Source of the DNA: Strigamia acuminata
Taxonomy: Eukaryota > Arthropoda > Chilopoda > Geophilomorpha > Linotaeniidae
Assembly: GCA_949358305.1 (NCBI GenBank)
Contig: OX442316.1
Coordinates: 5,642,001-5,706,000 of the forward strand
Direction of reading: 5' to 3'
Length of the DNA stretch: 64,000 nt
Part shown: positions 1,713-61,500 of the stretch, piece after piece
Layout of the letters: each line of letters opens with the position of its first letter
Numbering within the stretch: position 1 is the stretch's first letter
Translations under genes and position numbers: made by a program
The notes under the pieces: generated by a model
What the model saw: only the letters and a program-made list of their open reading frames with translations
Databases searched by the model: none
Told to the model about the DNA's origin: nothing

Positions 1713-2124
1713 TTTGACCACCCTCTACATAAATTCTTAAGTAGAAACGGCTTGCATTAATTGCTGCTCAATTTAAAGTTCTACACATCCTGGTACTAAA
1801 ATGTTGTTAATTATTAAAAGTGCAGGCTATCATTACTGCACCGTAGCTTGTGTAAACAAATTTGACAAAATTAATTATTTACAACTGAATGAAATGTTTT
1901 AAAGAAAAAATTTAAATAAGTTAAAATAAGTCACCTAAACACAACCGGGTGGTTATAAAACAGCAACAAATTTGGTATCTTAACTTTATTAAATTTATTC
2001 CTATTAAAATTATAACAAATTAGTAAATTACAGTCAATAAACCAGTGCTGCTGTTAGAGGGAATATGTGGAGTACCATCGGCCTTATGCGGTATAGTAAA
2101 GAAACAAAAATAAGAAAAACGATT
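1713..2124. other. Spacer between protease copies A and B
   Basis: AT-rich spacer holding the proximal promoter of copy A (next to its ATG) and the 3' flank of copy B. It contains the uninterrupted sequence AAATTTAAATAAG, which serves as the empty site for the MITE found in the B-C spacer. I see no other gene. Confidence 0.6.
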
Positions 2125-4133: not shown

Positions 4134-5162
4134 TTGACTGCCTCTACATAAATTCTTAAAGCTTGTCTCAATTGCTGCTCAATTAATAGTTTTACACATC
4201 CTGGTATTAAAATGTTATTAATTATTAAAAGTGCAGACTATCATTACTGCACGGTGACTGTCAAAATCTATAGAAGAATTGTAAAACAAGAACTCGGTTT
4301 TATTTTACAATAAAATAAAGTCTGTTGCATCCGGGATACGACCAAAGTCGAAAGATGGCACTAATTAGTCCAATCTTAATTAGTTTTCAATGATAACAGT
4401 TTTTTTTTATTGAGACTCCATCAGGAAATTTAGTTTAATGAAATGCAGCAAAGCTCTCTAGAAGCAAATCTTAAACATTGCTATTAAGTTTACAGATTCA
4501 TTGATTGTCAAATTTAAAAAATGTCCAGAAATTGTTTTCCACGATAGTGCACGATGCACAAAACCGGCATCAAACCAAATCTCTATCACGGAACAGTTAA
4601 ATAAAAGTAATGTTAATTTAAAGTTTTCAAAACTGTGTCTAACTAATTGTATTTTTATATAATTCAGATGAATGACTGTAAATACTGTGGTTCGAGATAA
4701 AAGTCAGAACAGAAAGATGAAGAATTTCTAGGTAAATTGACAAATTGCGACCACAAAGCCCTGAAAAGCTGGCAAATAGACAAAGTGACTGAATTGAAAT
4801 AGATGTCGGTTTGGGGTGGATGAGTCTGTTCACGGTCACATATACTTGTGAAAGTAAATTTGACAAAATTAATTATTTACAACTTAATTTCAAGTTTTTA
4901 AAGAAAAAATTTAAATACAGTGTAAGCTGTGTAGTCTGGACACCTCCCGACCGGACAAGCTCTGTGGCCCGGACAGGTTTTGAGGTCCTAAATTGGTCCC
5001 GCCTATACCCAGCCATGCTAAATTCCCTTTTCCCATCTGGACAGCCCCTTAGTCCGGACAACTTTCTGGGTCCCGTCCTATGTCCGGGCTACACAGCCTA
5101 CACTGTACCGCTAAGTTAAATAAGTCACCTAAACACAACCGGATGGCTATAAAACAACGATT
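4134..5162. other. Spacer between copies B and C
   Basis: About 1 kb without a gene. It contains the promoter of copy B (TATA-like CTATTAATT), a block conserved in all spacers (GGTTTTATTTTACAAT), and one inverted-repeat element described separately. Short open frames here are not conserved between spacers. Confidence 0.6.
4918..5105. mobile_element. MITE with TA target duplication (Tc1/mariner- or pogo-like)
   Basis: A 188-bp GC-richer block starts CAGTGTAAGCTGTGTAG and ends with its near inverted complement (CTACACAGCCTACACTG). TA flanks both ends (4916-4917 and 5106-5107). The paralogous A-B and E-F spacers have the same flanking sequence without the block, which supports insertion. CAGTG termini with TA duplication fit pogo/Tc1-type elements. 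There is no coding capacity, so it is non-autonomous. Confidence 0.75.
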
Positions 5163-7526
5163 TTAATCATTACAAAATACAGAGCCTTCAGCTATTTTAA
5201 AAATCCAATCATAAAAGTAGTCAACTCTTGTAACAATCATGTAATCTTGTCGTTTGTTACACACAATACCCGACGATACTACTCCGATGAAATTCCATCG
5301 TCCACCGATCAAAATCATGTGAGGTCCTCCTGAGTCGCCCTACAAATTCGAACAAAGTTGTACACCTCTGGCCAAATAAATCTTCATTTTCTCCTACGAT
5401 GCAAAAACATAAACTTCTCATTCAGAGCTGTGGAAGCATAGGAGAATATGAAGAATTCTTTAGCCAGAGGTGTACATTATTCTGGCTACTGCACCAATGT
5501 AGTATTAGTAAAATATTCTTTTTAGTTCGTTTCATGTTTCGAATTGTAATCAAGAAGAAAAATGATTCTTACACCACATGTTCCTGTGTGTCTTGCAGGT
5601 GCATGCATACATAATGTGGTTGCGTGCACATACTCTATTCCATAATACCTTGCACATTCGCTAACTGAAACAATGTCCACATTTACTTTCCTCGGCGTTA
5701 CTGGATTGAAACCTTTTTTTTTCAAAAATAAAAATGTTATATTTTTATTTTAAAAGTAATACACTTTCTTAATACAGTATTTACCAGTTTCAGTGGTGCC
5801 CCATCCAGTGACGGTTGACATATAACCCGTATAGTTCATTTTTGGTCTGGGGAAGCAAGGAGGTCTCATATTGGAAAAAAAGTTGATAAATTTTTTCATT
5901 TTGATTATCGCAATATCATTTTCCTCTTTCGTGTTGTAAAAAGGGTTAATGTAAGTGGCACTGGCTTCCAGTAAGAATCCAATGTAGTTTGTAGGATCAT
6001 GGACACCAAGGCCCACGGAAATTGTGCTCACCAATCTCCTGTCAGATTTGATAAATACGAATATCAAAAATTGTTTCGATAATCTCTGTTTTTAGGACGA
6101 GGGATGCGAATGCTTACAATGGTAACCAGATTTTTAAACGCGACCAAATTGAACGGGCGTCATTTAATCAGGTCGATTCAATGAGCCACATACAAGTGCA
6201 GACATTTGGCAGGTAATTAAACAGATGAAATTAACGGGCAATTAATTGTTTTTCAATTTGTGTACTCGGTTGGTTAATTGCTGACCCGTTCAATTGTTCC
6301 CAAGGGTTAAATGACACTCCGTTTAATCAAGGCGTAGGACGATTAACCACGTGACTTCCCATCCCATTTTTGTAATAGAGGCACCATGTGTTGTTACAAT
6401 ATTACAAGTTGTAATTTACAACTTTCTCGAGACAATTGGTGGCCCACTGTGGGATTTGGACAATTCGTCATTTCTGTTGCATTTTGGATATAGTTGACCC
6501 CATAATCACCAGACAAGATTGTTTTCTTTATAAACAACGACAAACTACTAGATTTAAGTCTTGTGGTTAATCGTCCGAGATTTACGTTGTCACCAATCCC
6601 TTATAATTTCGCCGAAGTAACGAAATTTATTCCTTCTTCGGGTCTCCAGCCTGACTCACCCGTAAATACAATGTGCAGCCGTAACGACAAATTCTAAACG
6701 CAAAAGAAACAGAATCGTATAACTATTTAAAAACGAATAATGGAGGTAATCAGAAAACTTATTGGCTTAAACATAGGAATGTCACTGCGCATGCTTAGTG
6801 TGTTTATGACACAAATGCAGTTAAATAGCAGATATAAAAAAATCGCACACGGATTTACGTACGATACACAGCCTCAACTGTGCGCCCACGTCTACAGATA
6901 ACTGAAAGGTGCTGCATCTTCAAAATATTACATCACAAGGTCGAATGTGTAGTTAGTGGAATGTTTTTTGAGCATGTTGGTGGTTAGGTTGAAAACAAAG
7001 TGGGTAAGGTTTGAGATTCTCTTGGAGTCCTGGATAGCAAACAGTTTGACTCCCGGCTTAGAACTCCTTGTAGTTTGAGTCGTTTTTTCCACTAGAAATT
7101 TGTGGGCGGCAATAAAGACCGTGCATTCTCCTATATATGAAACCAACCTTAAGCTTTTTTGATTCCCCTAATTATTTTATGCTTTTACGATTGCTTATTA
7201 ATGTTCCACCACAAAAAGGGAATATTTCGCCAACTTTTAATGCCACCTGTAATATACAAATGCATATATTTTTACAGTTTGACAGACATTTGGTTTTTGA
7301 CTCACGAGCCATGGAAATTCATTCGGATGTGAAGCAACTCCGTTAGAAATTCTAGTTTTAGCGGGCTTATTGCTAACCCCACAATCTTAAAAATGAATGA
7401 TTTTTATAGATTGTGAAATCAAGAAATGAAAAGAAACTTACAGCAAGAAGCTGGGACTGGAATTTGACCTTTAACAGCTGAATTGAAATGAATTGCAATC
7501 AGAATACATGCAATTAATGAAAACAT
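5163..7526 (-). CDS. Secreted serine protease, array copy C (reference copy)
   Basis: Complete protease gene, 275 residues. Exons: E1 7442-7526, E2 7306-7385, E3 7189-7246, E4 6660-6693, E5 5785-6038, E6 5573-5712, E7 5163-5339. E1 encodes a cleavable signal peptide; E2 has the activation cut R|ISNG, whose new N-terminal Ile would insert into the active site. The catalytic triad is His in TAAHC, Asp in ENDIAII, Ser in GDSGGP. Cysteines are placed for the usual pairs: FCGG with TAAHC, PPCF with the light chain, ECA with LCM, TC with GIVC. The SGxxC strand near residues 214-220 is present. All seven exons join in frame, and the 34-nt exon 4 exists only to carry TAAHC. A digestive or immune role cannot be told from sequence. 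Confidence 0.93.
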
Positions 7527-7572
7527 ATTGACTGCCTTAACATAAATTCTTATTGCCTTAATTGCTGCTCAA

Positions 7573-7578
7573 TTTATA
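7573..7578 (-). promoter_or_regulatory. TATA box conserved in the protease array
   Basis: TATAAA within ACTATAAATTGAGCAGC, about 50 bp upstream of the copy C start codon. The same box lies upstream of copies D, E, F and G at 47-75 bp and is altered in A and B, so transcription strength may differ between copies. Confidence 0.6.
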
Positions 7579-7683
7579 GTTTTACACATCCTGGTATTAA
7601 AATGTTGTTAATTATTAAAAGTGCAGGCTATCATTACTGCACAGTAGCTTTCAAAATCTATAGAAGAATTGTAAAACAAGAAC

Positions 7684-39476: not shown

Positions 39477-39996
39477 ACTTCTTCGCACTTTTTCATGAAA
39501 AGTGCTTTATTTTGAGCATCCATTAGTTGAATACGCTGTTCCTCTTCCAGTCGACATTTCAAATCATATTCATCTTCAAACATCAGGTGGGCAATAAATT
39601 TGTCATGAAATTCTTCAGCGTGTTTTACATTTGCAGCAAAGTCTGCAGCAGACTGGTCATCATACGGAGCAAAGTCTGCATCAATCAGGTCTTCATATGC
39701 AGCAAAGTCTGCAGCAGACTGGTCTTGATACGCAGCAGACTTTTTAGCGTATTCATCACGCTGTTTTTGATAATCAGCGTCCTTCTGCTGTCTTCTTGGA
39801 GGTGAAGATCCCGTTTTCATTCTCCTAGTTTATAAAAACATGTTAAAATAAAATATTTTCTTTTATTTAAAAAAAAAGTATACTTGTTGACCGTTGAACC
39901 TGGCATCTGTTGTGCTGGCACATTTGACAAGTTGTACAAGCATTGTTTGTAATCTGAACCCCAAGCACGATCTGGTTCTCTCTCGTTTCGTCGCAT
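39467..39996 (-). CDS. S-family small protein S1 (C-terminus replaced by a MITE)
   Basis: Two exons, 39884-39996 and 39467-39824, joined in phase 2 (AA|G) across a 59-nt intron; 156 residues. N-terminal part has the family pattern (PAQ...PGST), exon 2 starts with RMKTGSSPPRRQQ. The middle contains two repeats of DQSAADFAA. Strongly charged, probably coiled or disordered. Not recognised. The last codons and the TGA stop come from an inserted MITE; the original C-terminus would have continued beyond CEEV, resembling NEVDIFI of S2. Its promoter module lies at 40070-40134. Confidence 0.65.
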
Positions 39997-40794
39997 TGCT
40001 CAATCTTGTGTAGAACAAACCGCACAACTTCAAAAGCAAACCCCAAATGACGAATTTAATCAGCTGTATTTTATAAGGTCGATAAGAACATGATTAGTCA
40101 ATGTAAATTTAAATAAGTTTAAAAAAATTTGCATCTATGATTTTTTTAGTTGCTAATAAATCTATTCACAACTTTCCACGTACTTTTTAATTTCAAAACC
40201 ACTTTTTAAAAAACACTCGTTTTCAAATAAAATTTAAAGTAGCTTCTAACTTTCCTGCAAAACATCTGAACTTCAAAATAGATAATTTTGTTTATGCTAT
40301 TTCTTCAGACAAATTTACTTTAACGTTAGCCATTATACACTCGTACAGTAGAAACGAAAAAAAACATACGACGTAACTGCGTCATTACGCACACTAATCA
40401 CAGTTAAGATCGAAGACAAGTCTGTTTAGCCACGTGATTTATATTTTTTCCACTCACAATTTAAATAAAATATATTATCAGTGTTATAAATTATTTAATA
40501 CGGTACATTACATCAAAATGGTGAATAAATTAAATAAAAATTGAAGTTCCCAGTACTTAAAATCACTAAAAAAAACACATCACCGACAAACAACATTCAA
40601 AAACAGTCCTAGAAAATTAAAAATCAAATTCTAATTAGCCAAAGCTTTAAATTAAAATCTTCATGTTTTTTCAAGACTTCAATAAAAAATATTAAGTAAG
40701 ATCTCCCGTAGCAAGGTGCCAAGGAGTTCTGCTACTATCATTTTCTAACCTAAAATCAAAAAAATTACCCTTAAATTTTCGTGCAAGTTAAAAT
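39997..40794. other. S1 promoter and cassette spacer
   Basis: No gene. Contains the S1 promoter module, a weak relic of PUB exon 1 near 40306-40361 (ACTTTAACGTTAGCCATTAT) and spacer sequence shared with the other cassettes. Confidence 0.6.
40070..40134 (-). promoter_or_regulatory. Promoter module of S1
   Basis: Minus strand order: octamer ATGCAAAT, 18 bp, degenerate octamer ATTTACAT, CCAAT-like GACTAATC, TATA-like CTTATAAAA. The fixed arrangement recurs upstream of S2 (displaced), S3, S5 and S6. Confidence 0.6.
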
Positions 40795-41306
40795 TTAAAT
40801 AAATATATCTACTTCGTTGCACTTGCGGACTTGTGCTTGTGCTCGAACCTCTCTTCTTTTACTACGCTGTCTTTGTTCGTGCAGCCGACGCTCCGATTGA
40901 ACGGGCCATTCCAAATCTTCATCACTGTCGTGCATAAATTGACAAGCTTGCAAAAATCCGTCAGGCTGTTTTTTAGATCCTGCAGACTTTTTAGAACGTA
41001 GTAAAGCATCAAGTTTAGCCCTTTCAGCAGAACTTTTAAGCTTAGCTTCCTTAGCACAGCAATCTTGATAACTAGCGTACTGTTGCTGTCTTGTTGGCGG
41101 TGAAGTTCCCGATCTCATTCTCCTAGTTTGCAAAAACAAGTTACAATAAAATGCCGTTTTCTTTTCATTAAAATAAAGACGTACTTAGCGACCGTTGCCC
41201 CTGGAGCCCGTTGTGCAGGTACATCTGGCAATTTCCAATACGAGTCCAACCAATCCTGATAGTTCTTAACAAGCGTCTGGTCTGGTTGCGTCTTCTTTCG
41301 TTGCAT
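40795..41306 (-). CDS. S-family small protein S2
   Basis: Exons 41185-41306 and 40795-41122, junction AA|G in phase 2, 62-nt intron; 149 residues. Exon 1 carries the family core KLVKNYQDWLDSYWKLPDVP-like sequence; exon 2 begins RMRSGTSPPTRQQQ and is rich in Lys, Glu, Arg, ending NEVDIFI. Function unknown, no signal peptide or membrane segment. A 6.9-kb foldback element now separates the coding part from its promoter (48318-48383), so expression is probably abolished or altered. Confidence 0.7.
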
Positions 41307-41378
41307 TGTAAAGCTTGAGCGAAACAACCCGAACGATTTCAAAAGCAGACTCCAACTTTCAACCTCTAAACTCCAAAC

Positions 41379-41634
41379 GGCAGGGTAGAATATTTTCGAC
41401 TCGGATTCCTTTCGACCGCGTTTTTTTTCGACCGGATTTTTTGCGACCGGATTTTTCTCGACCGGATTGTTTGCGACCAGGATTGTTTCCGATCAGGATT
41501 GTTTGCGACCAGGATTCTTTTCGACCGGTTGGATTGCGACCTGGAATTTTATCGACTAGGATTCTTTGCGACCAGGATTTATCTCGACCGGGATTCACTT
41601 CGACCAGGATTCCTTTCGACTTGGTCGAAATTTA
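41379..41634 (+). repeat. Left terminal inverted repeat of the foldback element
   Basis: About 14 degenerate units of the type GACCAGGATTCTTTTC in plus orientation. All frames are open because the unit lacks stops, which produces incidental open frames on both strands. Confidence 0.8.
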
Positions 41635-41883
41635 GGTAGTTTACTTTTATAAATGGACTTGTAACGTGTCAAATTTATTCATTTTTATATTTTCTTTCAT
41701 CGGTACATATTTGAACCAAAATTTTGTTTTTAGTTTATGGCGAACGAATCTAAGGTTTGTGGAGAAGGGCTATTTCGGTAATGGCTCGTGATGTATAGCA
41801 GCACATAACTGCTCCATTTGGGTAATTTTATCCTTACTTGTTAAATTATTATTGAAATTTATGTTTACATTTTTTCTTTGTAG

Positions 41884-42710
41884 CAAGTGTCCGTTAATGA
41901 TTGGCTAAATTGTACGGCTACTTGCGATTCGAATGGTGAAGTAGTGGGCACAGTTTTGACCCAACTTCTGCACGGCGTTGGTAATTAGAAAAGGATATCG
42001 AGAAAACGATTCGTAAGGAATATATTTCTAGTTAATATTGATTGAAATTAAAATGTATATTTTTTTTAATTGCAGCCAATTTATAGAACAAATGTTTGCA
42101 ATCTAAAGACGCTAGAGTCCGATCTGGGTGACAAAATAGAGACAAATTCGTCGAAAAATTCAGCAGATAATTCAGCTCAAGATGTTCGAAGTGATCAATC
42201 GACGGCCGATTCTTGCGATCCAGCCAAACGAACGCCAGAGAAGACATCTGAGTCTTATAAAGAGACGCGGTCACGGATTACGGAATAGTTTTTATGGATA
42301 ACGTACCGGTAAAAATCTAGAGACTCGTTTTATTGAATTGGTGGAAGTAAATGAATATTTTATGGTACTTTAGTTTATTTACTTCTGTTACCTCTCGAGT
42401 ATTCTATTACTCCTTAGCGATTTCATGCATTTTAATTGTATTTTTTATTAGATATCAAATAATTTAATACCCCAGGACGAAATTACGCGATTAACTCACG
42501 CAAATACAATGACCTCATCTGATCTTCGTTCGTTTGAAATTGCATCCATTAATAAAGTGAGTGGAGATTAAAAATTAATATTATTTTAATCTAATTTTAA
42601 TCTAATTTTAATCCTAATTTCAGGTGGCTTGGAGTCCAAACTTCGGATCGCATTTATTAGTGGCTTCGGGTGAAAATTCAGGATTAATTAGGATCCATCG
42701 AATTCATTGA
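41884..42710 (+). pseudogene. 3' fragment of a WD40 gene, TFIIIC-subunit-like
   Basis: Recognisable exons: 41884-41980 (WLNCTATCDSNGEVVGTVL), 42076-~42288, 42452-42556 and 42624-42710, the last two joining in frame as INK|VAWSPNFGSHLLVASG...SGLIRIHRIH and a stop. This looks like the final WD40 repeat of a GTF3C2-type protein. The second exon runs into a stop (TAG, 42286-42288) before any good donor and the junction from the first exon is not in phase; the 5' end of the gene is missing at the element terminus. AATAAA follows at about 42762. Likely a captured, truncated copy; the family assignment is moderate. Confidence 0.5.
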
Positions 42711-42960
42711 TTGCAGCAGACAAAAGTAGAAAAACTACGGGTTAAATTGCAGACGATGTTGTAAATAAAGTGAAATAATTAAAGAAAATGTCTAATTAGC
42801 ATGATTTTTAATGAAATTTCTTTGAAGGTTTAGAGTTTAACTTCGGATGTTGATAATTTTGAAACTCGTCAATCGAATTGCAATGTCATCATTTTTATTA
42901 ATAAATAAAAAATTCCAAAAAAAATTACTTTGACCAAATATTTTTATTTATTCACACGAA

Positions 42961-44273
42961 TCACATTTCTTCAGTTTCAACAACAACAGGCGCTTCATCA
43001 TCATCTTCCCTATCAAAATCCCACTTGAATGTTTTCGTTAAATATTTTTTTAAACCTTCTACCCTTTTCTACAATTTCGTGCGGTACTTGTTGGTTCCCG
43101 TTCAAATTGGAGAAGAAAGAATGCAATGTGTTGACGAGGAAGTTTTCACGACTGACAATATCTACAAAGAAATCGCGAGGAATTTCCTGAAGTTGGTGAT
43201 GAAGTACAAAAATGAATTTTGAATATAAATCTGCGTATTTCGTAAGAGCATTGTCGCACGAGCACAGCAAGTGGATTAAATGTTTCCATTCTTCAAATGC
43301 GTCGTACACCTGTCCTAAAATAAAACAAATAAAAGCCATTTGAAGTTCTCCGAGAATGTCTTCAGGATCTGTATACGATTTGAGCATTTGATCTAAAGTA
43401 TAGGTCAAATCTAAACTGTTTTGTGATTTCACAAAACATTTAAGTTACTTTTTTAAAATCAAAATTGTCTTTTTTTTCTTCTTACTTTTTTCAGGAAATT
43501 TGGAAAAACGAATTTCCGTTCCGGGTTTTTGACACATTTTCGGAAGAAAATCATCTAGTTTTGGTCTCTTATTTGTTCTTGTTGACGATTCACTCTCATC
43601 AGTTATTAAATGGGAAACTGACGAAATTTTTTTGTTTAATGGCTGCACCCGTTCTAAAACTGTGTCTAAGAGAATAAGTTTTGTATAAAATATTTTACAA
43701 AATACGAAATTTTTTTCCTTACCAGTCATGTAGTAGGTCTGGAAAATCCATTTTTTCCAGTTGTCGTATGGATAAGCGCCTAAATGTTTGTCAAGCTCCC
43801 TTAAATTCTCTTTAAGCCTGTCTATTTCTTCATCTGAAGTGACTTCATCTTTGATATCTATATTGAACGATACACAATTCAGGTTACAGACCAATTTAAA
43901 CGTTAATTAAAATAACCTTCGAGATATTTATCCCATTTTGTAACAACTATTTCTCCTTTATTGAATTAATGAAAAAATCCAGTTCTGGGTGCCATTTGGT
44001 TGTCCCGACTAACTGCACTGAAATAAAGAAAATAAATTGTGGTCATTAGTCATTGCAAAATCCAAATCCAAATTTTTAACCTCGAAATTACCTGTAATAT
44101 ACAAAATGAATGCCCAGAGGAATCATCTTGACACCTTTGATATCGGTTTCCACATTCTAAGTATTGTGATCTATTCCAAATTCAGTTTTTGGTGGTACAT
44201 CTAAAAATATTAATGTCACACCTTCGCGAAATAAAGTCTTTGCAACATCAGGATCCATATCTTGTGAAGCCAT
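42961..44273 (-). pseudogene. Aar2: AAR2 splicing-factor gene, captured and decaying copy
   Basis: AAR2 acts in assembly of the U5 snRNP with Prp8. Exons: 44092-44273, 43917-44017, 43723-43857, 43486-43665, 42961-43410, with introns kept, so capture was at DNA level. Diagnostic segments: FREGVTLIFLDVP, GVKMIPLGIHF, LGAYPYDNWKKWI, PGTEIRFSKFP, ILGELQMAFICFILGQVYDA, EIPRDFFVDIVSRENFL. Three lesions: TAG at 44157-44159 where the family has Trp, TAA at 43966-43968, and one extra base in an A7 run (43045-43051) that shifts the acidic C-terminus (PVVVE) out of frame. The exon 2 donor (GTTATT) is weak. It lies inside the foldback element. Confidence 0.88.
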
Positions 44274-45136
44274 TGTCAATTTTACACAGGTACACGGGTT
44301 TTAGCAATGTCGCTCTCTCACTTATGATGTTTGGCCTTGGTCCAAGGTTTGGCACGTGATTGGCACTCCTCTCCAATTCTTATCGCGTCACTCGGTCACT
44401 CACCCTACATTTAGCCAGTGACTTTGACCCATTTTTCACCCCTTTGTTTTTCAGTGAAGAAAACACAAAACTTAGGGGGCACAGAAAGGCTTGGGTGCAT
44501 TGCACAACTCAAAAAACACATCAAACTCAAGTTGTGTGTTCTTACAAGGAATGACATTTACTTTTGTGGCTCAATCAGAGGAAAAAAATGTTTGAAATTA
44601 GCAAAAATGCAAGTGCAAAATGGAGAGGTCAGGGGCAAATTGAAAAATCGTCGGTGCAGACGACAATTAAATTAAATCAAATGAATAAAACCATGCAATA
44701 TTTAGCCCAATTTAGTCTCAGGAGAGAGCATAATATTTTTCCTCGTTGTTTTATAACCGTTTGTAGTAAATTATAGTTTACTAAATTTGAATTTCGAGCT
44801 CGTTTTTGAGCTTTTTATTCTGGCGATAGATGGCGACACGGTGAAATAGCTAATTCTAGTTTAATTAAAATAAAATAAAGTTTTTTGCGAGGAATTGCAA
44901 GAATTAGTAAGTCGGAGCACTTTGGATCGAAAACTTTAATGCATTTTGTGGCTAAATGGAAGTCGATCCGTACTTAAAAAAAACATGTAATATTTATTCG
45001 CTCTGGTGCAGTTATTTTCTTCTGTATAACGGCAAATACAAACGGCAATAAATTAATGTATAAGTTTTTGCAAGTAAAATAAGTCTTATTTCATCAAATA
45101 ATCAGATTTTAACGAAGGTGATATTGTTTTGAAAAC

Positions 45137-45227
45137 AATAATTTGACGCGCTGTCTTTGAAATTGTTGGAAAACAATGTTTTTTCGCATGTTTTCCAACA
45201 ATTTCAAAGATAGCGCGTCAAATTATT
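45137..45227. repeat. Near-perfect inverted repeat (hairpin)
   Basis: Arms of about 39 bp (for example TTTGACGCGCTGTCTTTGAA on the left) with a single mismatch near GCGCT(G/A)TCTTT, around a 13-bp loop ATGTTTTTTCGCA. No target duplication noticed. Confidence 0.85.
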
Positions 45228-45706
45228 CCGATGGGCGACTTCGCTGCGAAACACGTGGTCGCTAAGCAACGGAGCGATGGATAATTCTTCGCTAAATTTT
45301 AACAGTATTTTACCATTCTATTTTATATTGGTTTAAAAAAAGAAACCATGCATAATTTATTGAGCATGAAATGAGATTCACTTTGGTGGTCAAAATGGAA
45401 GCAAATAAACTATCGGTGTTTTAATTCGTTTTTAATTTTTAATGCCAAACAGATTAGCGTAAAATGCTCCAATACATAAATATAAATCAAATAAAAATGA
45501 CGTTTAGAAGTTTTTTTTTTGTTAGAAACCAATTTGGAAATTCTATTATAGGAAATTATGCGGAATGGTGGGGGAAATGTTTGCACCTGTGTGAATCTAA
45601 TAAAATCACAGAAATTTATGACTCCTAGGACGAATATTCTTCAAAAAAATTAATATGAAACATGAAACTTTGACAATTCAATTTGTGGCGCAAGTCGGAG
45701 AGTTTA

Positions 45707-45708
<2 letters not shown>

Positions 45709-45764
<56 letters not shown>

Positions 45765-45776
45765 GTGTGTGTGTGT
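45709..45776. repeat. (TG)n microsatellite
   Basis: About 34 dinucleotides with one GTGGGTGGG interruption. The minus-strand frame of repeated His-Thr is an artefact. Confidence 0.9.
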
Positions 45777-46644
45777 GACCTGTGTGAAGAGGGGCCGGAA
45801 GTGTCTTTACCCTTGAGAGGTGTGATATAAATGGCAGCAGGTGTTCCTCCTCCAATATTCAGTAAAGAGACACCAGTCTCCTTTAGGCAAAGTCAACCCG
45901 ACAGGTGTTTGAAGGGAAATGCAAGAAAAATAAATGGAAAATATAAAAGAAAGAGAGAAAGAAAGAAAGATACGACGTTCCTCGCTTTACTTGGGGCACA
46001 TAACCATGAAATTAGCTTTTTTCCTGTGGCATAAAGGTGATGAGACAAATTATAAAAAGATTTTTTTTTTCTTAAAAGTTTAATTCCACATTACCGGTAT
46101 GTTTGATAAATGATTTTTTGGTTAAATGCACTGCCATGAATATGTCATGATGTTTGATTCCAAGGCTTCTCACTTCCTCATAATAACCCAGGCCTTGATG
46201 TGACCTGATAAAGAGGTCTTCATTCAGCTGATTTACACCTGTTTCATTTGTTGTTTTATTTTCATTTTATGGAAGTTGTTGAAAAAGTTTTTGGTGGTAA
46301 ACTTTATCAAGTTTCTGTTTCAAACATGCATTTCGTGGGATTTAAATTAATTAAATTTAATTTAATTTTAATTTAATTTAATTTTAATTTTCTGGAAATA
46401 TTTTTTTCTTTTAAAATTTGAATTTTGAATAGAAATCAAAAAAGTCACTAATTCAAGAGACAATATAATAATTTTGTTTTCCAAAACTGGAATAATTGAC
46501 AAGTCTAAATGACTCGGTAATTGAATTTTCCCTCAAATTTTCCGTCGAATTTTTCACTCGCCTTGACCTGCGCGCTCACGTGCGCGCTTGACCTGCACCC
46601 ACCTGCGCCCCTCGCTTTTAATTTAATTTTTTAACTTTGGTTAT

Positions 46645-46851
46645 TGTTAAGTTATGTTAATGTAATGTTGAGTTCATTGTTGAAGAACGTGTTATTGCTA
46701 TATCATACTGTTACATTGTTGTAAAAGCGTTACCATGACAATTTTGTATTACTCCTCACTTGCTTGTATTTTACCCACGAGTAAAGACGTGTGTTTTGTT
46801 TTCCACTTTAAAAACCTCTCCTTTATTTCAACGTGATGCCCCAGCATAACA
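46645..46851. repeat. Solo LTR nested in the foldback element
   Basis: 207-bp block TGTTAAG...CATAACA flanked by the 5-bp duplication GTTAT (46640-46644 and 46852-46856). No primer site or internal region follows. Superfamily not assigned. Confidence 0.65.
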
Positions 46852-46856
46852 GTTAT

Positions 46857-47636
46857 TAAAATTTAGCAATATCTTTGGTTTATTTTTTGTATTTTTAATA
46901 TTGTTTACTATTGGCTGGAATTAGGTTTTGCTTTCGTGTTAATTTCTGAATTTTGGAGTGTTTTATTACATAACTTGATCAAAACTGCCGGTAAATTTCA
47001 TATTTATTATTCAGTTTTAAAGATAATGATGTGATGATAATATGCATCTTTCCAAGTCCCATCGAATCCCCTCCGAATCCCATCCGAATCCCCAGAATCT
47101 ATCCGAATCCTACGAATCCCATCCGTATAAAAAAAACAAAAACAAGTATTATCCTGTAATATTCACAGCATCGTATCACAACGTTTATTAGCAATATCAA
47201 AAAGAAAAAACAACACATTATATTTTTGATATTGTCGATCTAAACAAACTTAGTTTATTTAGCAGCTATAGAACATTTTTAATTTTATTATTAGTGGTGC
47301 TCTTTATTTATTTAGAAAAATGTAAATGTCAATGGAAAAAAAATATTTTTGTACATTATTTTGTAAATTACATCTGCCTTGTGGCAGCACTGTTTTTAGA
47401 ATATTTTACAGTAGTTTAATTTTATAATAATGAGAAATAAAAGCATTTTCACACGAATTTAATCGAATCCGATGTTTTTTCATTTGTCGAAAGAAAAAGT
47501 AGAAAAATAGGTTTGATTCTGCTTGTTTGCGACTCCAATGATGAAATTAAAGTTTGAAATTAATTTACACAGTTTTTATTTATTTGTTTGTTTATTAAAA
47601 AAAAAAATTGAATTGAAAATAAAGATTTTTGTCCGC
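46857..47636. other. Non-coding stretch before the ICMT exon
   Basis: AT-rich, with a degenerate repeat of CGAATCCCATC (about 47058-47125) and AATAAA on the minus strand near 47593 that would serve the ICMT exon. No gene. Confidence 0.5.
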
Positions 47637-47822
47637 TTATTGGTACTCTACCCTGAATCCCGATATAAAAGATAATCCAGTAGGCACGTTCTTCTGATAT
47701 TTCACGTAATCTTGACCAAAAAAATTTAAAAGAATGAATTCTTCTTCGTGTATCCGCTCGTTAAAGAAATTCCATGATGCGATAGTGTAACCGATTAAAC
47801 AGATCGGATTGCACAATACAAT
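47637..47822 (-). pseudogene. Last exon of isoprenylcysteine carboxyl methyltransferase (ICMT)
   Basis: 61 codons after a good acceptor (TTGCAG) ending in TAA and followed by AATAAA. VLCNPICLIGY, EEEFILLNFFGQDYVKYQ and VPTGLSFI match the conserved C-terminus of ICMT, the ER membrane enzyme that methylates the prenylated CaaX cysteine. The preceding exon (usually W-FYWSIGTQ) is not found upstream within the element, so this is a captured fragment. No lesion within the exon itself. Confidence 0.8.
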
Positions 47823-48064
47823 CTGCAATTAGAAATAAACTTTTAGTGAGTAAATGCTATAAAGAAGGCTGCAAAAGTAGATTATTTGCTTCTAAAAAAT
47901 GCTTATTCAAGAAACACAATTCCAGCAATTTCCATTAAAAAATATAGTGTTGGATTGAACAATACACATTACTCCTGTCATGTATGCAATACGTGTCATC
48001 GTCACGTATTGTATACTGACATCGTCAGTTATATAATGCGTGACATTATTTGGGGTATATAAAC

Positions 48065-48310
48065 CCCCAACCATTGGTGAAGTCGAAAAATGTCCGGTCG
48101 AAAAAAATCCTGGTCGAGATGAATCCTGGTCGAAAATTTTCCTGGTCGAAAATTATCCTGTTTGAGTCGAAAAAATTCCTAGTCGAAAATTTTCCTGGTC
48201 GAAAATTTTCCTGGTCGAAAATAATCCCAGTCGAAAAAAAGCGCACTTTACCTCGAGTCGAAAAGAATCCCGGTCGCAAAGAATCCGGGTCGAAAATATT
48301 CCTCCTCGCC
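48065..48310 (-). repeat. Right terminal inverted repeat of the foldback element
   Basis: About 13 degenerate units of the type GGTCGAAAATTTTCCT, the reverse complement of the left array. The outermost ~35 bp match the left terminus well. Confidence 0.8.
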
Positions 48311-48317
48311 CTCCAAA

Positions 48318-48383
48318 CATTTATAGGGACAATTGGAACATGATTGGTCAATGCAAATTTAAATAAGTTAAAAAAATTTGCAT
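48318..48383 (-). promoter_or_regulatory. Stranded promoter of S2
   Basis: Octamers ATGCAAAT (48351-48358) and ATTTGCAT (48376-48383) with 17 bp between, a CCAAT box (ATTGG on plus at 48343-48347) and a TATA-like CTATAAA next to the foldback insertion. The S2 coding region lies 7 kb away across the element. Confidence 0.7.
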
Positions 48384-49045: not shown

Positions 49046-49461
49046 TTACTTCTTTGCACTTACGGGTCTGTTACTGTACGAGGACTCGTAACTGCGAGCT
49101 CGTTCTTGTGCTAAAGTATCTCTTATTTTAGTATAGAATTCTTTTCTCTGCTGTTCTTTGGCAATGTCATCCTCTGTAACATGAACAGGCCTGCTAGCTA
49201 ATTCATCAAGCCGAGCTTGATGACTAGCGTCCAGTTGCCGTCTTGTTGGTGGTGGAGATCGTGTCCTCATCTTCCTAGTTTGCAAATACAAGTTACAATA
49301 AGATAATGTTTTATTTTCATTAAAATAAGGGCGTACTTAGCGGCCGTTGGTCCTGGTTCCCGTTGTGCTGGCCTAAATAGCCATTCCCCACACGAATCCA
49401 AACAATCCTGATTCAATGTCTTCACAAGTTTCGGGTCTGGTTCCGTCTTATTTTGTTGCAT
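49046..49461 (-). CDS. S-family small protein S3
   Basis: Exons 49337-49461 and 49046-49274, AA|G phase-2 junction, 62-nt intron; 117 residues. Starts MQQNKTEPDPKLVKTLNQ; exon 1 ends QREPGPTAAK; exon 2 starts KMRTRSPPPTRRQ and contains a charged EEx-rich helix (DDIAKEQQRKEF), ending NRPVSAKK. Soluble, unknown function. It is the simplest undamaged member and has a complete promoter module. Confidence 0.7.
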
Positions 49462-49506
49462 TGTAAAACTTGAGCGAACTCAAATTGCTAAATTGCAAAC
49501 CAGTTG

Positions 49507-49585
49507 TGTATATGTACATATATATAGGGCCAACTGGGAGCACGATTGGTCAATGCAAATTTAAATAAGTTTAAAAAATTTGCAT
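49507..49585 (-). promoter_or_regulatory. Promoter module of S3
   Basis: Minus strand: ATGCAAAT, 17 bp, ATTTGCAT, GACCAATCGTG (CCAAT box), then CTATATATATG (TATA) about 55 bp upstream of the ATG. Confidence 0.75.
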
Positions 49586-50659
49586 CAATGGTTTTATTTG
49601 CTATCAAGTCAATTCACGATTTTTCAAGTACTTTTTTTAAGCATTTAGTTTAAAAACACTCATTTTCAGATAAAATTTTAAACAGCTTTTGCAAAACACT
49701 CATTTACAAGTTTACTTCTAAATAAACAATTTATATAACCATTGTGTTTGTTTTTTTATTTCTTGAGGCAAATATTTTACATGGCGCTCCAAATCTACTG
49801 TAACGAAAAAAAAAATTGATATAGCCATAATAGTACACGCTATATCACATCTAGATCGAAGACAAGTCCGTTCCGCGTTGTTATTTAAATTTCCCCAACT
49901 TGCAATTTCAATAAAACAATATCATTATAATCATTATTTAAACGTTACATCAAAACGGTGAAAACATAAAAAACAAAATTAAAATTACCTAAAATGACGA
50001 CAAACAACCAAAAACATACATTCAAATATAGTCCTAGAAAATTAAAAATCGAATTCTAATTAGCCAAAGCTTTAAATTAAAATCTTCATTTTTCAAGACT
50101 TCAATAAAAAGAAATATTATTCGTAAGTTAAGATCTTCTGTAGCAAGACAACAAGAGCTGGCTTGTGCTACTACCACCTTTTTATCTTAATTAATAAGAA
50201 ATTAACATTAAGATATTTGTGGAGGTCAAAATTATTATACATATTATTTTTAGTTGTACATAGAAACGAAAAAGATACGTCGGGATTGCGACTTGGCTCG
50301 TGATTTGTATTTCTTCGATTCACAATTTATGAGACACTGATATATATCAGTGTCTGATAAATTGTTTAATACATTACATCAAAACGGTAAATAAATAAAT
50401 CAAAATTAAAGTTACATAAAATCACCTACATCAAACATCATCGAAAAACACAACATTCAAAATTAGTCTAAGAAAATTAAAAATCGAATTGTAATTAGCC
50501 AAAGCTTTGAATTAAAATCATAATTTTTAAAGAAATCAACAAAAAATATTAAGCACGATCTCCCGTAGCAAGGTGCCAAGGAGTTCTGCTACTATCCGTT
50601 TGTCTAAAACCAAAAAAAATTAATATTAAATTTTCGTGAAAGTCAAAAGTTAAAAAAAA
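49586..50659. other. Duplicated cassette spacers
   Basis: Two overlapping copies of the cassette spacer (about 49840-50225 and 50260-50620), each with ATCAAAACGGTAAA/GTGAAAAC and TAGCCAAAGCTTT, plus a PUB exon 1 relic at 49764-49806. No gene between S3 and S4. Confidence 0.55.
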
Positions 50660-51141: not shown

Positions 51142-52034
51142 CTAGGGTTCGTACCTGCCAGCTCGATGATTTGCTAAAGCATCTGTTAATTTCCTAGTCA
51201 TTTTTTTTCTTTTCTGTTCTTCGACATGATCAGCCTCTGTAACGGGCCGGATAGCTGCTTTAGCAAGCCGAGCTTGATGATCGGCGAGCATTTGCTGTCT
51301 TGTTGGTAGTGGAGGTCCGAGTATTATCATTTTCCTAGTTTGCAAAAACAAGTTACAATAAGATAATGTTTTCTTTTCATTAAAATAAAAGCGTACTTAG
51401 CGGCCGTTAGTTTTAGTTCCCGTTGTTTTGCTAAAGCATCTGTTAATTTCCTACTCATTTCTTCTCTCTGCTGTTCTATGGCATATTCAGCCTCTGTAAC
51501 AGGTCGGATAGTTGATTTAGCAAGCTGAGCTTGATGATTGGCGAGCATTTGCTGTCTTGTTGGTAGTGGAGGTCCGACTAGTGTTATCATTTTCCTAGTT
51601 TGCAAAAACAAGTTACAATAAGATAATGTTTTCTTTTCATTAAAATAAAAGCGTACTTAGCGGCCGTTGGTCCTGGTTCCCGTTGTTTTGCTAAAGCATC
51701 TGTTAATTTTCTACTCATTTCTTCTCTCTGCTGTTCTCTGGCATATTCAGCCTCTGTAACAGGTCGGATAGTTGATTTAGCAAGCTGAGCTTGATGATTG
51801 GCGAGCATTTGCTGTCTTGTTGGTGGTGGAGATCGTTTCCTCATTTTCCTAGTTTGCAAAAACAAGTTACAATATAAGATAATGTTTTCTTTTCATTAAA
51901 ATAAAAGCGTACTTAGCGGCCGTTGGTCCTGGTTCCCGTTCTGCTGGCACAAATGGCCATAACTCCCACGGATCCAAACAATCCTGATTCTCCTTCACAA
52001 GTTCCGGGTCTGTTTTCCTCTTATTTTGTTGCAT
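51142..52034 (-). CDS. S-family protein S5 with triplicated exon
   Basis: Four exons: 51913-52034, 51657-51848, 51397-51594, 51142-51334; every junction is AA|G, phase 2, and each intron is nearly the same 62-64 nt sequence. 234 residues. Exon 1 ends EREPGPTAAK. Exons 2-4 are repeats of ~64 residues, each with PPxPTRQQMLANHQAQLAKS and PVTEAE...TDALA; repeats 1 and 2 end like exon 1 (LTAAK or PGPTAAK), so a 254-260-bp exon-plus-intron unit was duplicated in tandem. The last repeat ends AGRYEP. Helical, charged, unknown function. Complete promoter upstream. Confidence 0.7.
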
Positions 52035-52077
52035 TGTAAAACTTGAGCGAACTCAAATTGCTAAATTCCAAACCAGC

Positions 52078-52146
52078 TGTATATATAGGGCCAACTGGGA
52101 GCACGATTGGTCAATGCAAATTTAAATAAGTTTAAAAAATTTGCAT
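52078..52146 (-). promoter_or_regulatory. Promoter module of S5
   Basis: ATGCAAAT (52146-52139, minus) and ATTTGCAT (52121-52114) with 17 bp between, CCAAT box at 52110-52106, TATA at about 52087-52078. Almost identical to the S3 module. Confidence 0.75.
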
Positions 52147-52348
52147 CAATGGTTTTATTTGCTATCAAGTCAGTTCACGATTTTTCAATTACTTTTTTTA
52201 AGCTTTTAGTTTAAAAACACTCATTTTCAGGTAAAATTTTATTCGTATTTAAACAGCTTCTACCTTCACTGCAAAACACTCATTTCCAAGTTTACTTCTA
52301 AATAAACAATTTATATACCGGTAATTTTGTTTGTTTTTGTTATTTCTT

Positions 52349-52836: not shown

Positions 52837-53325
52837 TTAAAAAAATATATCTACTGCTCTTCCGCTCTGGCGCACTAGTGCTTGTTCTCGAGCAACTCTT
52901 ATTCTCCATTGCTGTTTCTCTCTGTGCAGTCGACGTAAAGATCGAAAATCAGGTTCCTTAATATCATCGTAATCGTAATAATATTGCTCATAAGATTCAT
53001 CAGCCTGTTTCTCAGATGCAGCAGACCATTTAGATCGTGCAACAGGTTTTAAATTCCACGCAGCAGAACTTTTAACACATTCAGAATACAGTTTTTTCCG
53101 TCTCGTTGGTGGTGGAGTTCCCAATCTCCTTCTCCTAGTTTGCAAAAACAAGTAAAAATAAAAAAATCCTTTTTTTTTTATTAAAATAAATGTGTAGTAC
53201 TTATGGCCCGTTAAACCTGGTGCATATTGTACTGCCACATCTGCTAATTTCCAATCCGTATCCAACCAATATTGATAGTAGTTTTGAACAAGTTTCTGGT
53301 CTAGTTCTGTATTATTTCGTTGCAT
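52837..53325 (-). CDS. S-family small protein S6
   Basis: Exons 53201-53325 and 52837-53134, AA|G junction, 66-nt intron; 140 residues. Starts MQRNNTELDQKLVQNYYQ, exon 1 ends PGLTGHK; exon 2 starts RRRLGTPPPTRRKK, has an acidic Tyr/Asp patch (YYYDYDD) and an Arg/Gln-rich end (GRAVDIFF), resembling S2. Unknown function. It is the outermost member on this side. Confidence 0.7.
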   Translation of the reverse strand: MQRNNTELDQKLVQNYYQYWLDTDWKLADVAVQYAPGLTGHKYYTFILIKKKGFFYFYLFLQTRRRRLGTPPPTRRKKLYSECVKSSAAWNLKPVARSKWSAASEKQADESYEQYYYDYDDIKEPDFRSLRRLHREKQQWRIRVAREQALVRQSGRAVDIFF

Positions 53326-53392
53326 TGTTAAACCTTGAGCAAAACAAACCGGACGAAAACAAACCTCAATTGCTAAATTCCAAACCAGCTGA

Positions 53393-53457
53393 ATTTATAA
53401 GACCAATTGGAACATGATTGACCAATACAAATTTAAATACCGTAAAAAGATTTGCAT
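53393..53457 (-). promoter_or_regulatory. Promoter module of S6
   Basis: ATGCAAAT, 17 bp, degenerate ATTTGTAT, CCAAT-like TCAATCATG/CCAATTGG and TATAAA at about 53398. Same order as the other modules. Confidence 0.6.
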
Positions 53458-55297
53458 CTCTCATTTTTTTTCTTACTATAAAATCCAGTCCGAATTTTCC
53501 ACGTACTATTTCTTTATTTTAAATATCAGTTTATAAACATTCATTTTTCAACTAAAAAGTGGCTAAAGCAACTTCCCTGCAAAACAACTGGAAAAAATAT
53601 ACTCGGAATTAACTAAATAATTAAACTCAAGAATTTTATTTGTTCTTGCTACTCCTTACTTGTTGTGATAATTAATTCGCGTGCAAATTCAATATAACTA
53701 CTATAAAAAAAGTAATCACAGAGGTTTATTTATAGAAACTTGTATTCCTATCGATTTCTCTGGCTAGTTAAGTAAAACACGCAACCAATTCGCTTGAAAC
53801 TAACCTGTGCGTGTGAAAAATATCAAACAAAACGCATTAATTGATTGATCATTGTCTAATTTACGTAAGACTTTAATTAAATTGGGAATTTAAACGAAAA
53901 TTTCACATTATATACTGACTATAGCACGATTGAAAATGTTCTGTGGAATAAAATAAATGATTAATTCCGTTAACATTGAAAAATATGTTCCCACACTTGT
54001 GCTAATACATAAGAATATTTACAATTTCTCTTTGTTTACATTTTACATGTAAAATATCTTTAATATGACTTACTTGTTAGATGAAACTTTTAGAAAAAAA
54101 AAAGTGCTTCGATGTTTTTAAAATCAACAATTACACTAATTCAAACACATTATAATAACACATGCAGTTTACAACACACATAAAATCATGTCCGGACAAT
54201 TTAATTCACCAATATTTTAATTTAAGACTGAACAGGTATATTTTTCGTGTCTAACATGTATAGTGTACAAGTTTTGCGCAAATCCTTACATTCTGTAAGG
54301 CTATGGAAGTGATTTTAAGTGAATAAACTTGCATTATGCACTCCCAGTTCCCACATTTCTTCTTAAGTCATCAACGTTGTGGAAAAGAAACAAATTAATC
54401 GAAGATAAAACTAAACCTGGCTAAAATGCAGGACAAAGTTAAGCAGATATTGATAATTTTATGTCATAGAATTTCAAATTTACTATGCTAATTAGTCTTA
54501 ATTTTATTGGAATTGTAAATAAAATGGAGGGGAAGCCATTAGTTCAATTTTTGATGGCAGTTTTTTTTTAGTTTAAATGTTTACAAATTTAAAATACAAA
54601 AAAAGCATTGAAATAAATGAATTAATGTTGAAGAAAATTATTACAATCACTTCTTTAAACTGTAAAATAAGAGCCAAATTCCGAGTTATGCTTAGAGAAA
54701 TCCACTTATCCCGCAAAAATTACCTTAAACGAAATCTTTTCTCACATAAATAGTAAAATTGCGAATTAAATGCAACATAAGTAGTAATACAAACAATTCA
54801 AACTGTTATTCGTGTTAATGGAGCATTAGAACAACAAAAATATGCAATAAAGAAGTAATCCTATAAACTCTTCTATTACAAATTAATCATAGATTAACTT
54901 CGTTGTCGCATGATTCTTTACTCGATTGGCAGTGATAAATAAACCCAAAAAAATAAAACAAAACCTTGAAAAATATTGGAATTCAAAGTAAATCAATTAT
55001 CCAAGTGCAAATATTAAAATATTTCATATTGACCTGACTAGACATTACAACCGTACGCACAACAACCGTCAAATTCAAAAACAGATGAAGAACATTGAAA
55101 AATGTATAACCAGACTAAACTAACTCCTTTTTATATATATAGATAAAACAAATTCATTCATCTTATTTATAAATTAATTTAACAAAAAAAAAATCTATTT
55201 ACCACTCCACCATCCCCCTCTTTCAAGTCGTAAATAAATAATAATTTTTATATTAAGTGTGTTAAAATGCTGGTCACAGATTGACCACCTAATAAAT
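53458..55297. other. Long AT-rich interval between S6 and Csp
   Basis: About 1.8 kb with no gene, repeat family or conserved exon recognised. Part is probably the 3' untranslated region of Csp. Confidence 0.5.
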
Positions 55298-58593: not shown

Positions 58594-61500
58594 TCATGGT
58601 GGAATAAAACTTTTCATCAGAAGTTGTCCGTTGACAATCGACGTGCTTGTGATGATAAATCTATAACCTAAAACACACAACAAGAATTAATACACACATT
58701 TAATACCATAAATAAATGTATTTTCACCTCTTAACCGTCCCAATAATCGAAAAGCAGCTATTTCGCTGTACGTAATACCACCGAGAATGCAGACTAGAAC
58801 CACTTGATCACAAACCGCTTTACCGGCTCCTCGTGCGGATTTCACGGAACAATTTGAAAAATGTTCACCAGGTAGGAGTTTGGTGATTTCATCCATGCCG
58901 TCGAACCCACCTCGCTCCAATACCTATGACAAAACATTTTCTTTCAACACTTGCATCAAAAAACGGATAAATATGTATCGTACCATCTGAACTAAACTGC
59001 AAATCAAAGGGACGAAGGCTCCTCCAAAGACGTATGCAGGATTTGTTGGATTTTTATAATCAAATTCTCCTTCCACCTTCGGCACTAAATTCAACTTCCT
59101 CGTGAGTGTGTGGAAATTTGATTTTGCCAAATACGACATTGCAGATGCTGCGAATTTGCCGACCAATTTCGAAGAAGGCATCGACGGCGTGTTTAATTTC
59201 AGTTCGTGTTCGTAGAAGAGACCCAATTTGGACAGGTTTGCGAATGTTAACAGATGTTGATGACCGTATGATTGGAGAAATTTGGTCCGCAGAGAATTGA
59301 AATCTTTAGAAAGGAGTCCGCCATGCGAGGAAGCGAAAAGGCACATGAGTCGTAATGTTTGTTCGATGGGGAATTTCAATATGATGGCGTCTTCTATGAA
59401 ATGTAAACACTCCTGGTACGCTACACCTTCTATACAATCTTTTTAAAAAAATAAAAATATTTATAAATTTGAATATGTAGCAAATTGAGTGCGATAAAGT
59501 ACTAACCTTGTTCTACTCTCATTTGTTCCGTCATTCGATTATTTACCAACACTTTATTAATCCTATTACAAGCTCCAATATCTGAAAAGTCAAATTTAAA
59601 ATAAAAATAAAATATTTCACGCGCAATCAAATACTACTTACGTAAAGCAACCGATCCGTGGTGTTGTTGGTGGCGAGATAAGTCTGTTTTAATATAAGCG
59701 GCAACATCCGATATATTCATATTTTGTCGCTTCTAAAATTGTTTTAACAAAACAGTTGAAAGAAATTCACTTGTTTTTATTTTCTAATGTTACATTTAGA
59801 CTGGTTTAAAAAATATAAACAAGTTTAAATGTTTTCATTTGTATATTTTAGCTGCTAAATTGTTAAAGTTTACGTTTCTTACCTCTGCACTAACAACTAA
59901 TTCCTTTACTTTTTTAGACAATACACCAAACGCTTTAGTAATGTGGCTGTCCCTGATTTCATCAAAGAGCTAGATGAAATAATTTACTAAGAGTTTAATT
60001 TTTTAAATGATCTATGTTACCTTATCTTCGCTCGTTAAAGACAATTTAACTGGATCATTTTTCCCAGTTACTTCTGATCCAAGCGCAATAAATCCACATT
60101 TAATGGAAAATATTTCGTCCAACTGTCCTTCGTACGTCAACTGCGTCAAAAGCGTCGAAGCATGGTCCACATCTGATTATAAAAGCAATTTAAAAAATAT
60201 AGAAATTTAACTCGGAAATGTTTAATATTGCAATAAACCTCTGTCTATTAAAAAGAGGTGTCCTATTTCCCGGTCTCGCAGTCCATCTTTTATATCTGCA
60301 GAAGTTAGTAAACGTTTCATCATGTCGAACACTAACTAAAATTACATATTGATAATGCTGTTTATGTTGCGCACGTCCTCTTATACCTTTGCACCACGCC
60401 CTTGCCCATAAACATTTGGGATGAAGCCAAACTCTTTCTGTAGTTCTACCAATGAATTGGCAACAGTCTGGATCCAAATATAATTCTTATTCTGTCAATA
60501 TTATTAGAGATAATTTAGAATTATTATTTTTTTTACTTTTAGTCGTATTAATAAGTTTACTTACTACAAAAAAATCACTGTAATAGTTCGGTAGCTCTAA
60601 GCTCAAAATATCTCTGTCTAGTGGAATGAAGCCCAAGTCAAGACTAATTAAATTCACATCACCATAAACACCTTCATATTCAAACAATTCCTCGCAAACA
60701 TACAACTGTTTAGAAAAAAGACAGAATTATGATTTAAACAAAGTTTCGTGTAAATGACAAGGACGGATCGAATTATCGAGCAAAATTAGTAGTAAAATTC
60801 ATTTATTGGACCGAAAATTAATTTTTCGTTTCAAACATTCATTTTTCAGACCAAAAATTCATTCTTTTAGACCGAAAATTCATTTTTCAAACCGAAAATT
60901 CATTTTTCAAACCGAAAATTCATTTTTCAAACCGAAAATTCATTTTTCAAACCGAAAATTCATTTTTCAAACCGAAAATTCATTTTTCAAACCGAAAATT
61001 CATTTTTCAAACCGAAAATTCATTTTTCAAACCGAAAATTCATTTTTCAAACCGAAAATTCATTTTTCAAACCGAAAATTCATTTTTCAAACCGAAAATT
61101 CATTTTTCAAACCGAAAATTCATTTTTCAAACCGAAAATTTATTTTTCAAACCGAAAATTTATTTTTCTGACTAAAAATTTATTTTTCAGACCAAAAATT
61201 TATTTTTTAGACCAAAAATTTATTTTTCAAACCGAAAATTTATTTTCCAGACCAAAAATTTATTTTTTAGACCGAAAATTCATTTTTTAGATCGAAAATT
61301 CATTTTTTAGATCAAAAATTCATTTTTTTAGACTGAAAATCCATTTTCTTAAACCAAAAATTAATTTTTTGGACCAAAAATTGATAAAATGGGGTTACCC
61401 ACAGATTGCGCCTTGCATGTTCTAGGGGTCAAGCAAATACAATATTCCCCCTCGATCCGCCCCTTACAAAAGGAGGTTTTGGGGGTTGTGGAAAATAAAA

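Follow-up and report, generated by a model that had tools for sequence, protein, structure and literature searches.

Are the pieces of three unrelated host genes that lie side by side in a stretch of the Strigamia acuminata genome at home there, or are they the cargo of a mobile element? The stretch (contig OX442316.1, positions 5,642,001 to 5,706,000), hereafter the window, is 64 kb long and was compared with the 237.5-Mb genome of 157 contigs, C1-C13 among them. The gene pieces lie within a unit of 6,932 bp (41379-48310 of the window), which is very probably a non-autonomous Mutator-like element (MULE) of the Pack-MULE kind with subterminal tandem repeats forming foldback-like inverted termini. 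It inserted with 8-bp duplications, occurs in many near-identical copies, carries genomic DNA of three host genes, introns included, and shares its right end with a relative encoding a MULE transposase.

The perfect 8-bp target-site duplication (TSD) CTCCAAAC was read directly on both sides of the element, at 41371-41378 and 48311-48318. The left end reads GGCAGGGTAGAATATTTTCGAC and the right end, inverted, GGCGAGGAGGAATATTTTCGAC; GGC and the core GAATATTTTCGAC are common to both, the intervening and outer bases being partly different. Each end continues into an array of degenerate units of about 230-240 bp, and the two arrays are mutually inverted. The left terminus and its array of TTTTCGACCMGGATTC units extend over 41379-41621 (plus strand), and the right array and terminus over 48082-48310 (minus strand). 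An earlier sequence-only reading had described the duplication, the GGC-bearing inverted termini and the inverted arrays, all of which we see, but its 17-bp unit is replaced by one of 16 bp (TRF periods 16 and 32). Long inverted termini of tandem repeats are the structural mark of foldback (FB) elements, a likeness of structure and not of sequence family. Within the element, a near-perfect inverted repeat with 39-bp arms (97%) and a 13-bp spacer is found at 45137-45227.

Beside the copy in the window the genome contains 11 further uninterrupted copies of 6,928-6,932 bp, which align with 0-2 mismatches, at most one gap and at least 99.9% identity; one of them (L038) lacks its first base. Three additional copies are interrupted by insertions, namely L037 and L048, which are near-identical to the rest, and the copy at C8:11350434, which matches only piecewise at 94-99% and is therefore older. 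In total, 12 uninterrupted and three interrupted copies are present, 14 of them near-identical and one older. Perfect 8-bp TSDs, all different, flank nine of the 12 uninterrupted copies, and that of the interrupted L048 matches in 7 of 8 positions; this count covers the 12 and L048, not the other two interrupted copies (L037 and C8:11350434), whose right flanks lie outside the comparison. The left 254 bp (41387-41640) have at least 43 matches in the genome, 13 of which are identical from end to end (best 40 of 95 candidates scored), and the right 251 bp at least 45, with 14 identical (best 40 of 114). The expectation of multiple loci with identical termini and differing 8-bp duplications is borne out by these data. 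The further expectation of different cargo holds for relatives of 16.6, 11.6 and 9.2 kb, whose contents partly differ, and fails for the near-identical copies, whose cargo is identical.

The cargo, about 3.4 kb from three genes, matches host loci elsewhere at 93-96% BLAST identity, with approximately 3-4.5% mismatches, and keeps its introns, which indicates capture at the DNA level. The first piece (41721-42882, plus strand) comprises the 3' end of a WD40 gene, introns included; its parent lies at C4:12109749-12110885 (51 mismatches in 1,159 aligned bases). The upstream exon of this parent matches PF00400 at E 7e-4, below the domain's cut-off, and the GTF3C2 chain 8cli_C at E 0.004, among many WD40 chains of which several score better. 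The WD40 part of the earlier assignment is confirmed, then, and the resemblance to GTF3C2/TFIIIC110 is weak. Other partial matches to this piece (91-93%) occur outside the element copies at C3:18108115-18108449, C4:12854115-12854436, C1:46694970-46695132 and C1:46696628-46696790, and may be pseudogenes, paralogues or other captures.

The second piece (42881-44295, minus strand) contains the whole coding region of AAR2 with its introns, reaching from the 3' untranslated region (UTR) to a point some 16 bp upstream of the first ATG, and the AAR2 domain PF05282 is found in it. It differs from its parent at C3:28565782-28567243 by 61 mismatches in 1,414 aligned bases. The parent tops the 21 AAR2 matches in the genome with 178.5 bits and no stops, against 144.4 bits for the 14 cargo copies. 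The gene proposed from the sequence is present in its entire coding region but cannot function: with premature stops, frameshifts and the loss of a splice acceptor, it is a pseudogene. The stop in exon 1 is found at 15 of 16 loci: all 14 near-identical copies have it, as has L022, which represents the C8:11350434 copy there; the sole miss, L047, is a stretch of that same copy ending short of the exon. Where the AAR2 piece joins the WD40 piece, the two overlap by 2 bp (CA), and both host loci contain these bases.

The third piece (47125-47914, minus strand) is the 3' part of ICMT and comprises the last coding exon (approximately 47637-47826), 3' UTR and a piece of intron. It is 94.9% identical over 800 columns, with 26 mismatches, to its parent at C1:11046258-11047052, where the same exon is encoded without a stop before its end. 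PF04140 (E 1e-5, 26.3 bits) and an ICMT match in the PDB (E 4e-19) confirm the exon, and the parent adjoins the single place listed for PF04140 in the genome search. That search listed the native ICMT without the element copies despite the 26.3 bits of the element's exon, and because it missed this exon it is no proof that ICMT is single-copy. With the alignment of all three pieces to parents on C4, C3 and C1, the proposed capture of several host genes with their introns is upheld.

Helitrons typically capture several genes together with their introns, and the cargo might on this ground be attributed to rolling-circle (Helitron) capture, or else to segmental duplication, rather than to a transposon with terminal inverted repeats (TIRs). 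Helitrons, however, are not known to produce TSDs or to bear TIRs, and the 8-bp TSDs of nine of 12 copies, together with the inverted termini and with ends that agree in 11 of the 12 (L038 being one base short), rule out either process.

The insertion site itself provides insight into the state before insertion. The joined 300-bp flanks, searched against the genome, gave six matches, of which two are their own halves and four are places at 72-74% identity that span the insertion point free of the element. All four lie within the window (39971-40201, 49383-49626, 51973-52187 and 53246-53502) and, judged from their sequence, look like promoters of a tandem gene family; minus-strand frames near these repeats start with MQRKKTQPDQ... 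or MQRNNTELDQ.... In the best of them (53246-53502) TTCCAAAC is present once where the element's site has CTCCAAAC, followed by seven extra bases, so that this paralogous promoter keeps an almost undisturbed target site; the remaining three show divergence or gaps at the insertion point. The element interrupts a repeat of this kind close to a TATA-like box (TATAAAT, minus strand): it entered a few bases away, between this box and a frame beginning near 41306, and as read from the sequence an effect on the expression of this tandem-family gene is possible. Elsewhere in the window, 60794-61369 holds a tandem array with 28.6 copies of the 20-bp unit AAAATTCATTTTTCAAACCG. That AAR2, the WD40 gene and ICMT are native to this locus and the flanking repeats coincidental is suggested by nothing except the presence of the gene pieces. 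With host loci elsewhere, near-identical 6.9-kb units at 12 places, nine of them with different TSDs, and paralogous promoters free of the element, we regard this reading as ruled out.

Three large relatives are found on C4 (16,649 bp; C4:7720633-7737281), C11 (11,621 bp) and C5 (9,172 bp), and all three have perfect 8-bp TSDs (CATTGCAC, ATGGGGAT and AATTTGTG, respectively). One terminus of each is GGCGAGGAGGAATATTTTCGAC, equal to the right end of the window element, and the other is GATAGGGTGGAATATTTTCGAC. Most of their long common stretches are 94-99.9% alike, and the C11 element looks like a deletion form of the C4 element. From the window element they are 3.1-3.3% apart in ICMT, and stretches of backbone are 93-96% alike; AAR2 is 4.4% apart in the C4 and C11 elements, and the C5 element has short AAR2 pieces only. 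The backbone stretch at 45781-45944 (plus strand), common to all three at 96% identity, begins a 172-aa open reading frame (ORF) in the 16.6- and 9.2-kb elements.

Of the large relatives, only the C4 element appears among the MULE matches listed. Its transposase gene has six exons with GT/AG borders and stays open for 507 residues as far as the last exon followed; it matches PF10551 (E 4e-12) and shows a D-60-D-129-E spacing. No PF10551 match falls inside any of the 15 element copies among the 118 matches listed (best 150 of 169 candidates), as expected of a non-autonomous Pack-MULE. Long TSDs (nine of 12 copies, three of three large relatives), termini in common with a MULE-transposase element and host-gene DNA with identifiable parents at three loci complete this picture. 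A search of the genome with the C4 transposase gave at least 90 matches (best 85 of 178 candidates scored), including its own exons at 90-99%. Among the matches listed, scattered fragments at other loci reach 43-90% (most longer ones 62-82%), open frames of distant MULEs about 25-33%, and the C4 locus is the only one at 90-99% exon after exon.

Further features of the relatives and their termini deserve mention. In the C4 element (L053) the 172-aa ORF lies at 3654-4172 and a RING-finger ORF (PF13920) at 7020-7625; the former has no significant match in Pfam or the PDB, and the two perhaps represent accessory proteins or more cargo. Another locus, L056 (C12:2771700-2778900), has ICMT-bearing ends on both sides, inverted, and backbone of the window element, with no match to the latter's WD40 or AAR2 pieces; it is a possible intermediate. 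Further relatives lie at approximately C12:437720-454726, C3:6738001-6748352, C12:7910975-7915251 and C13:362904-369568. The 19-base terminal pattern, with up to three mismatches allowed, has 352 occurrences, compared with 20 of the reversed control, and one common three-mismatch form among the first 100 places listed, GGGTCGAATAATTTCAACC, may belong to another family.

Duplications of 8 bp are common to P and hAT elements as well, and such a superfamily (P-element/Galileo type or hAT), equipped with foldback termini, could have been the mover, with the C4 MULE gene a mere passenger. Galileo, as described, does combine foldback termini with a P-type transposase (PMC3573991, PMC3688188, PMC3169594). 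Against it stand the six-exon open transposase gene inside related termini with a perfect TSD (domains of P and hAT were not searched for) and an architecture that fits the MULE families Muta and Tm1; we consider it improbable.

Several observations nevertheless weigh against assigning the element to MULEs moved by the C4 transposase. Three of the 12 uninterrupted copies (L036, L038 and L046) have no TSD, and their flanks, compared by eye for exchange among them, gave no match. The termini vary, similarity to the large relatives being 74-80% in the left arm and 87-89% in the right (78% and 87% for the C4 element). The C4 transposase model, predicted from sequence alone, reaches the last exon followed, and its FLYWCH zinc finger (PF04500), a domain that in the Phantom/Muta group stands at the N-terminus of the transposase, is borderline, scoring 26.3 bits on the exon ORF and 23.4 on the spliced model, at a cut-off of 23.6. 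Domain, spacing and termini, rather than a tree of reference MULE clades, place this transposase among the MULEs. That it acts on the 6.9-kb element is inferred, and the open MULE frames at about 25-33% could act instead.

The presence of the same genes in both element groups raises the question of one or several captures. We compared alignment columns between the window element, the native gene and the relatives, skipping columns gapped in the element or native gene or with fewer than two relatives, and omitting the C11 element (same as C4) from both sets and the C12 locus (its sequence L056L, badly aligned, 19-24% apart) from the ICMT set. For AAR2, the element agrees with all relatives against the native gene in 13 columns and with the native gene against all relatives in seven; 11 are private to the element, 600 the same and 26 set aside. 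The corresponding ICMT figures are eight and one, with eight private, 431 the same and 31 set aside. The comparison is unrooted, and a small ICMT tree groups the element with the native gene at a support of only 0.21. This pattern is consistent with, not proof of, a single capture common to both element groups, and independent AAR2 captures in the two appear less likely. Besides the ICMT and AAR2 pieces that it has in common with the window element, the 16.6-kb element holds further gene-like contents of a WD40-like and a RING kind. On this basis we tentatively suggest, as a possibility short of even chances, that host genes were captured in, or passed to, a lineage of giant transposase-bearing MULEs, the cargo being inherited via autonomous elements, with template switching, perhaps at the repeat arrays, joining it step by step into composites of several genes.

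A solo long terminal repeat (LTR) helps to order these events. It occupies 46645-46851 (207 bp, TGTTAAG...GCATAACA) or, with its 5-bp duplication GTTAT, 46640-46856, and lies within an unbroken match (query 44300-48080, positions 1-3781) of all 14 near-identical copies. It is absent from the C8:11350434 copy, whose matches to the same query end at 2346 and restart at 2553. Elsewhere, near-identical LTR-like sequences occur in pairs 4.7-7.4 kb apart, e.g., at C1:50425097 and 50429759, the arrangement expected of LTRs of full elements. Mismatches amount to some 3-4.5% between cargo and host loci, and the uninterrupted copies differ among themselves by less than 0.1%. From divergence levels and LTR distribution we infer the order capture, decay, LTR insertion, reduction to a solo LTR, and recent burst. 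An ancestral element would have taken up ICMT and AAR2 DNA, the AAR2-WD40 join at 2-bp microhomology being such as template switching in repair or replication may leave, and the cargo would have decayed into pseudogenes. The solo LTR presumably arose within one lineage, which then appears to have been mobilised in trans to 14 places very recently, most likely by the transposase of the 16.6-kb element or a close relative, with the array units as its probable (predicted) binding sites.

A young, clean multi-gene Pack-MULE is of interest since a survey of 100 animal genomes, as reported, names no Pack-MULE and no insect Pack-TIR in the reference genomes, with four multicopy cases; its limitation to internal sequences of 100-5,000 bp probably passed over an element of 6.9 kb (PMC8277862). 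Here host loci, element-free sites, an older LTR-less copy and a candidate transposase occur within one genome, so that both the sequence of captures and the way they came about can be tested. Any additional gene model for AAR2 or ICMT found here should be checked, since it may be transposon cargo.

Fragments in plant Pack-MULEs are usually shorter, and their host belongs to another kingdom. The plan of MULE ends around host-gene fragments is the same (PMC6446971). The proposed mobile element with foldback-like termini, three host genes' DNA and a Pack-MULE likeness is supported. The claim that no described family has such an architecture is contradicted by Muta of Aedes aegypti (PMC5225508) and Tm1 of Meloidogyne (PMC3169594). 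Muta, placed with Phantom (PMC6446971), has MULE transposases, several identical copies and 8-9-bp TSDs, MULE TSDs in general being given as 8-10 bp, and 10 of its 12 long-TIR families have 9-15-bp subterminal tandem repeats (PMC5225508). Host-gene pieces occur in about 20% of Muta1 derivatives, but Muta1 is 3,198 bp long, and in the cargo example a derivative of 1,623 bp carries a fragment of 276 bp (PMC5225508); the Strigamia element, by comparison, measures 6.9 kb, of which about 3.4 kb comes from three genes, and has a transposase-bearing relative of 16.6 kb. Tm1, a Mutator/Foldback family of root-knot nematodes, likewise has FB-like composite TIRs with a repeated motif of about 14 bp, asymmetric outer termini, many non-autonomous members and possible host-sequence acquisition; it combines FLYWCH and MULE transposase in a single element and, unlike the young near-identical copies of Strigamia, has 9-bp TSDs and no two identical elements, and was judged senescent (PMC3169594). 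Animal Pack-TIRs share the captured host DNA within a multicopy TIR element, distinct TSDs and 2-bp microhomology at one junction, and Ssk-FB4 of flies even contains an almost whole gene (PMC8277862). The D-60-D-129-E spacing of the C4 element falls within the 60-76 and 120-135 given for most arthropod MULE clades, whereas its 16.6 kb (total span, including any nested insertions) exceeds their size range of 1.4-10.0 kb (PMC13359780). Gene-carrying MULEs are a known kind; unusual in Strigamia are the size of the cargo, its origin from several genes, one of them represented by its whole coding region, the many near-identical copies left by a very recent burst, and cargo in common with a 16.6-kb transposase-bearing relative.

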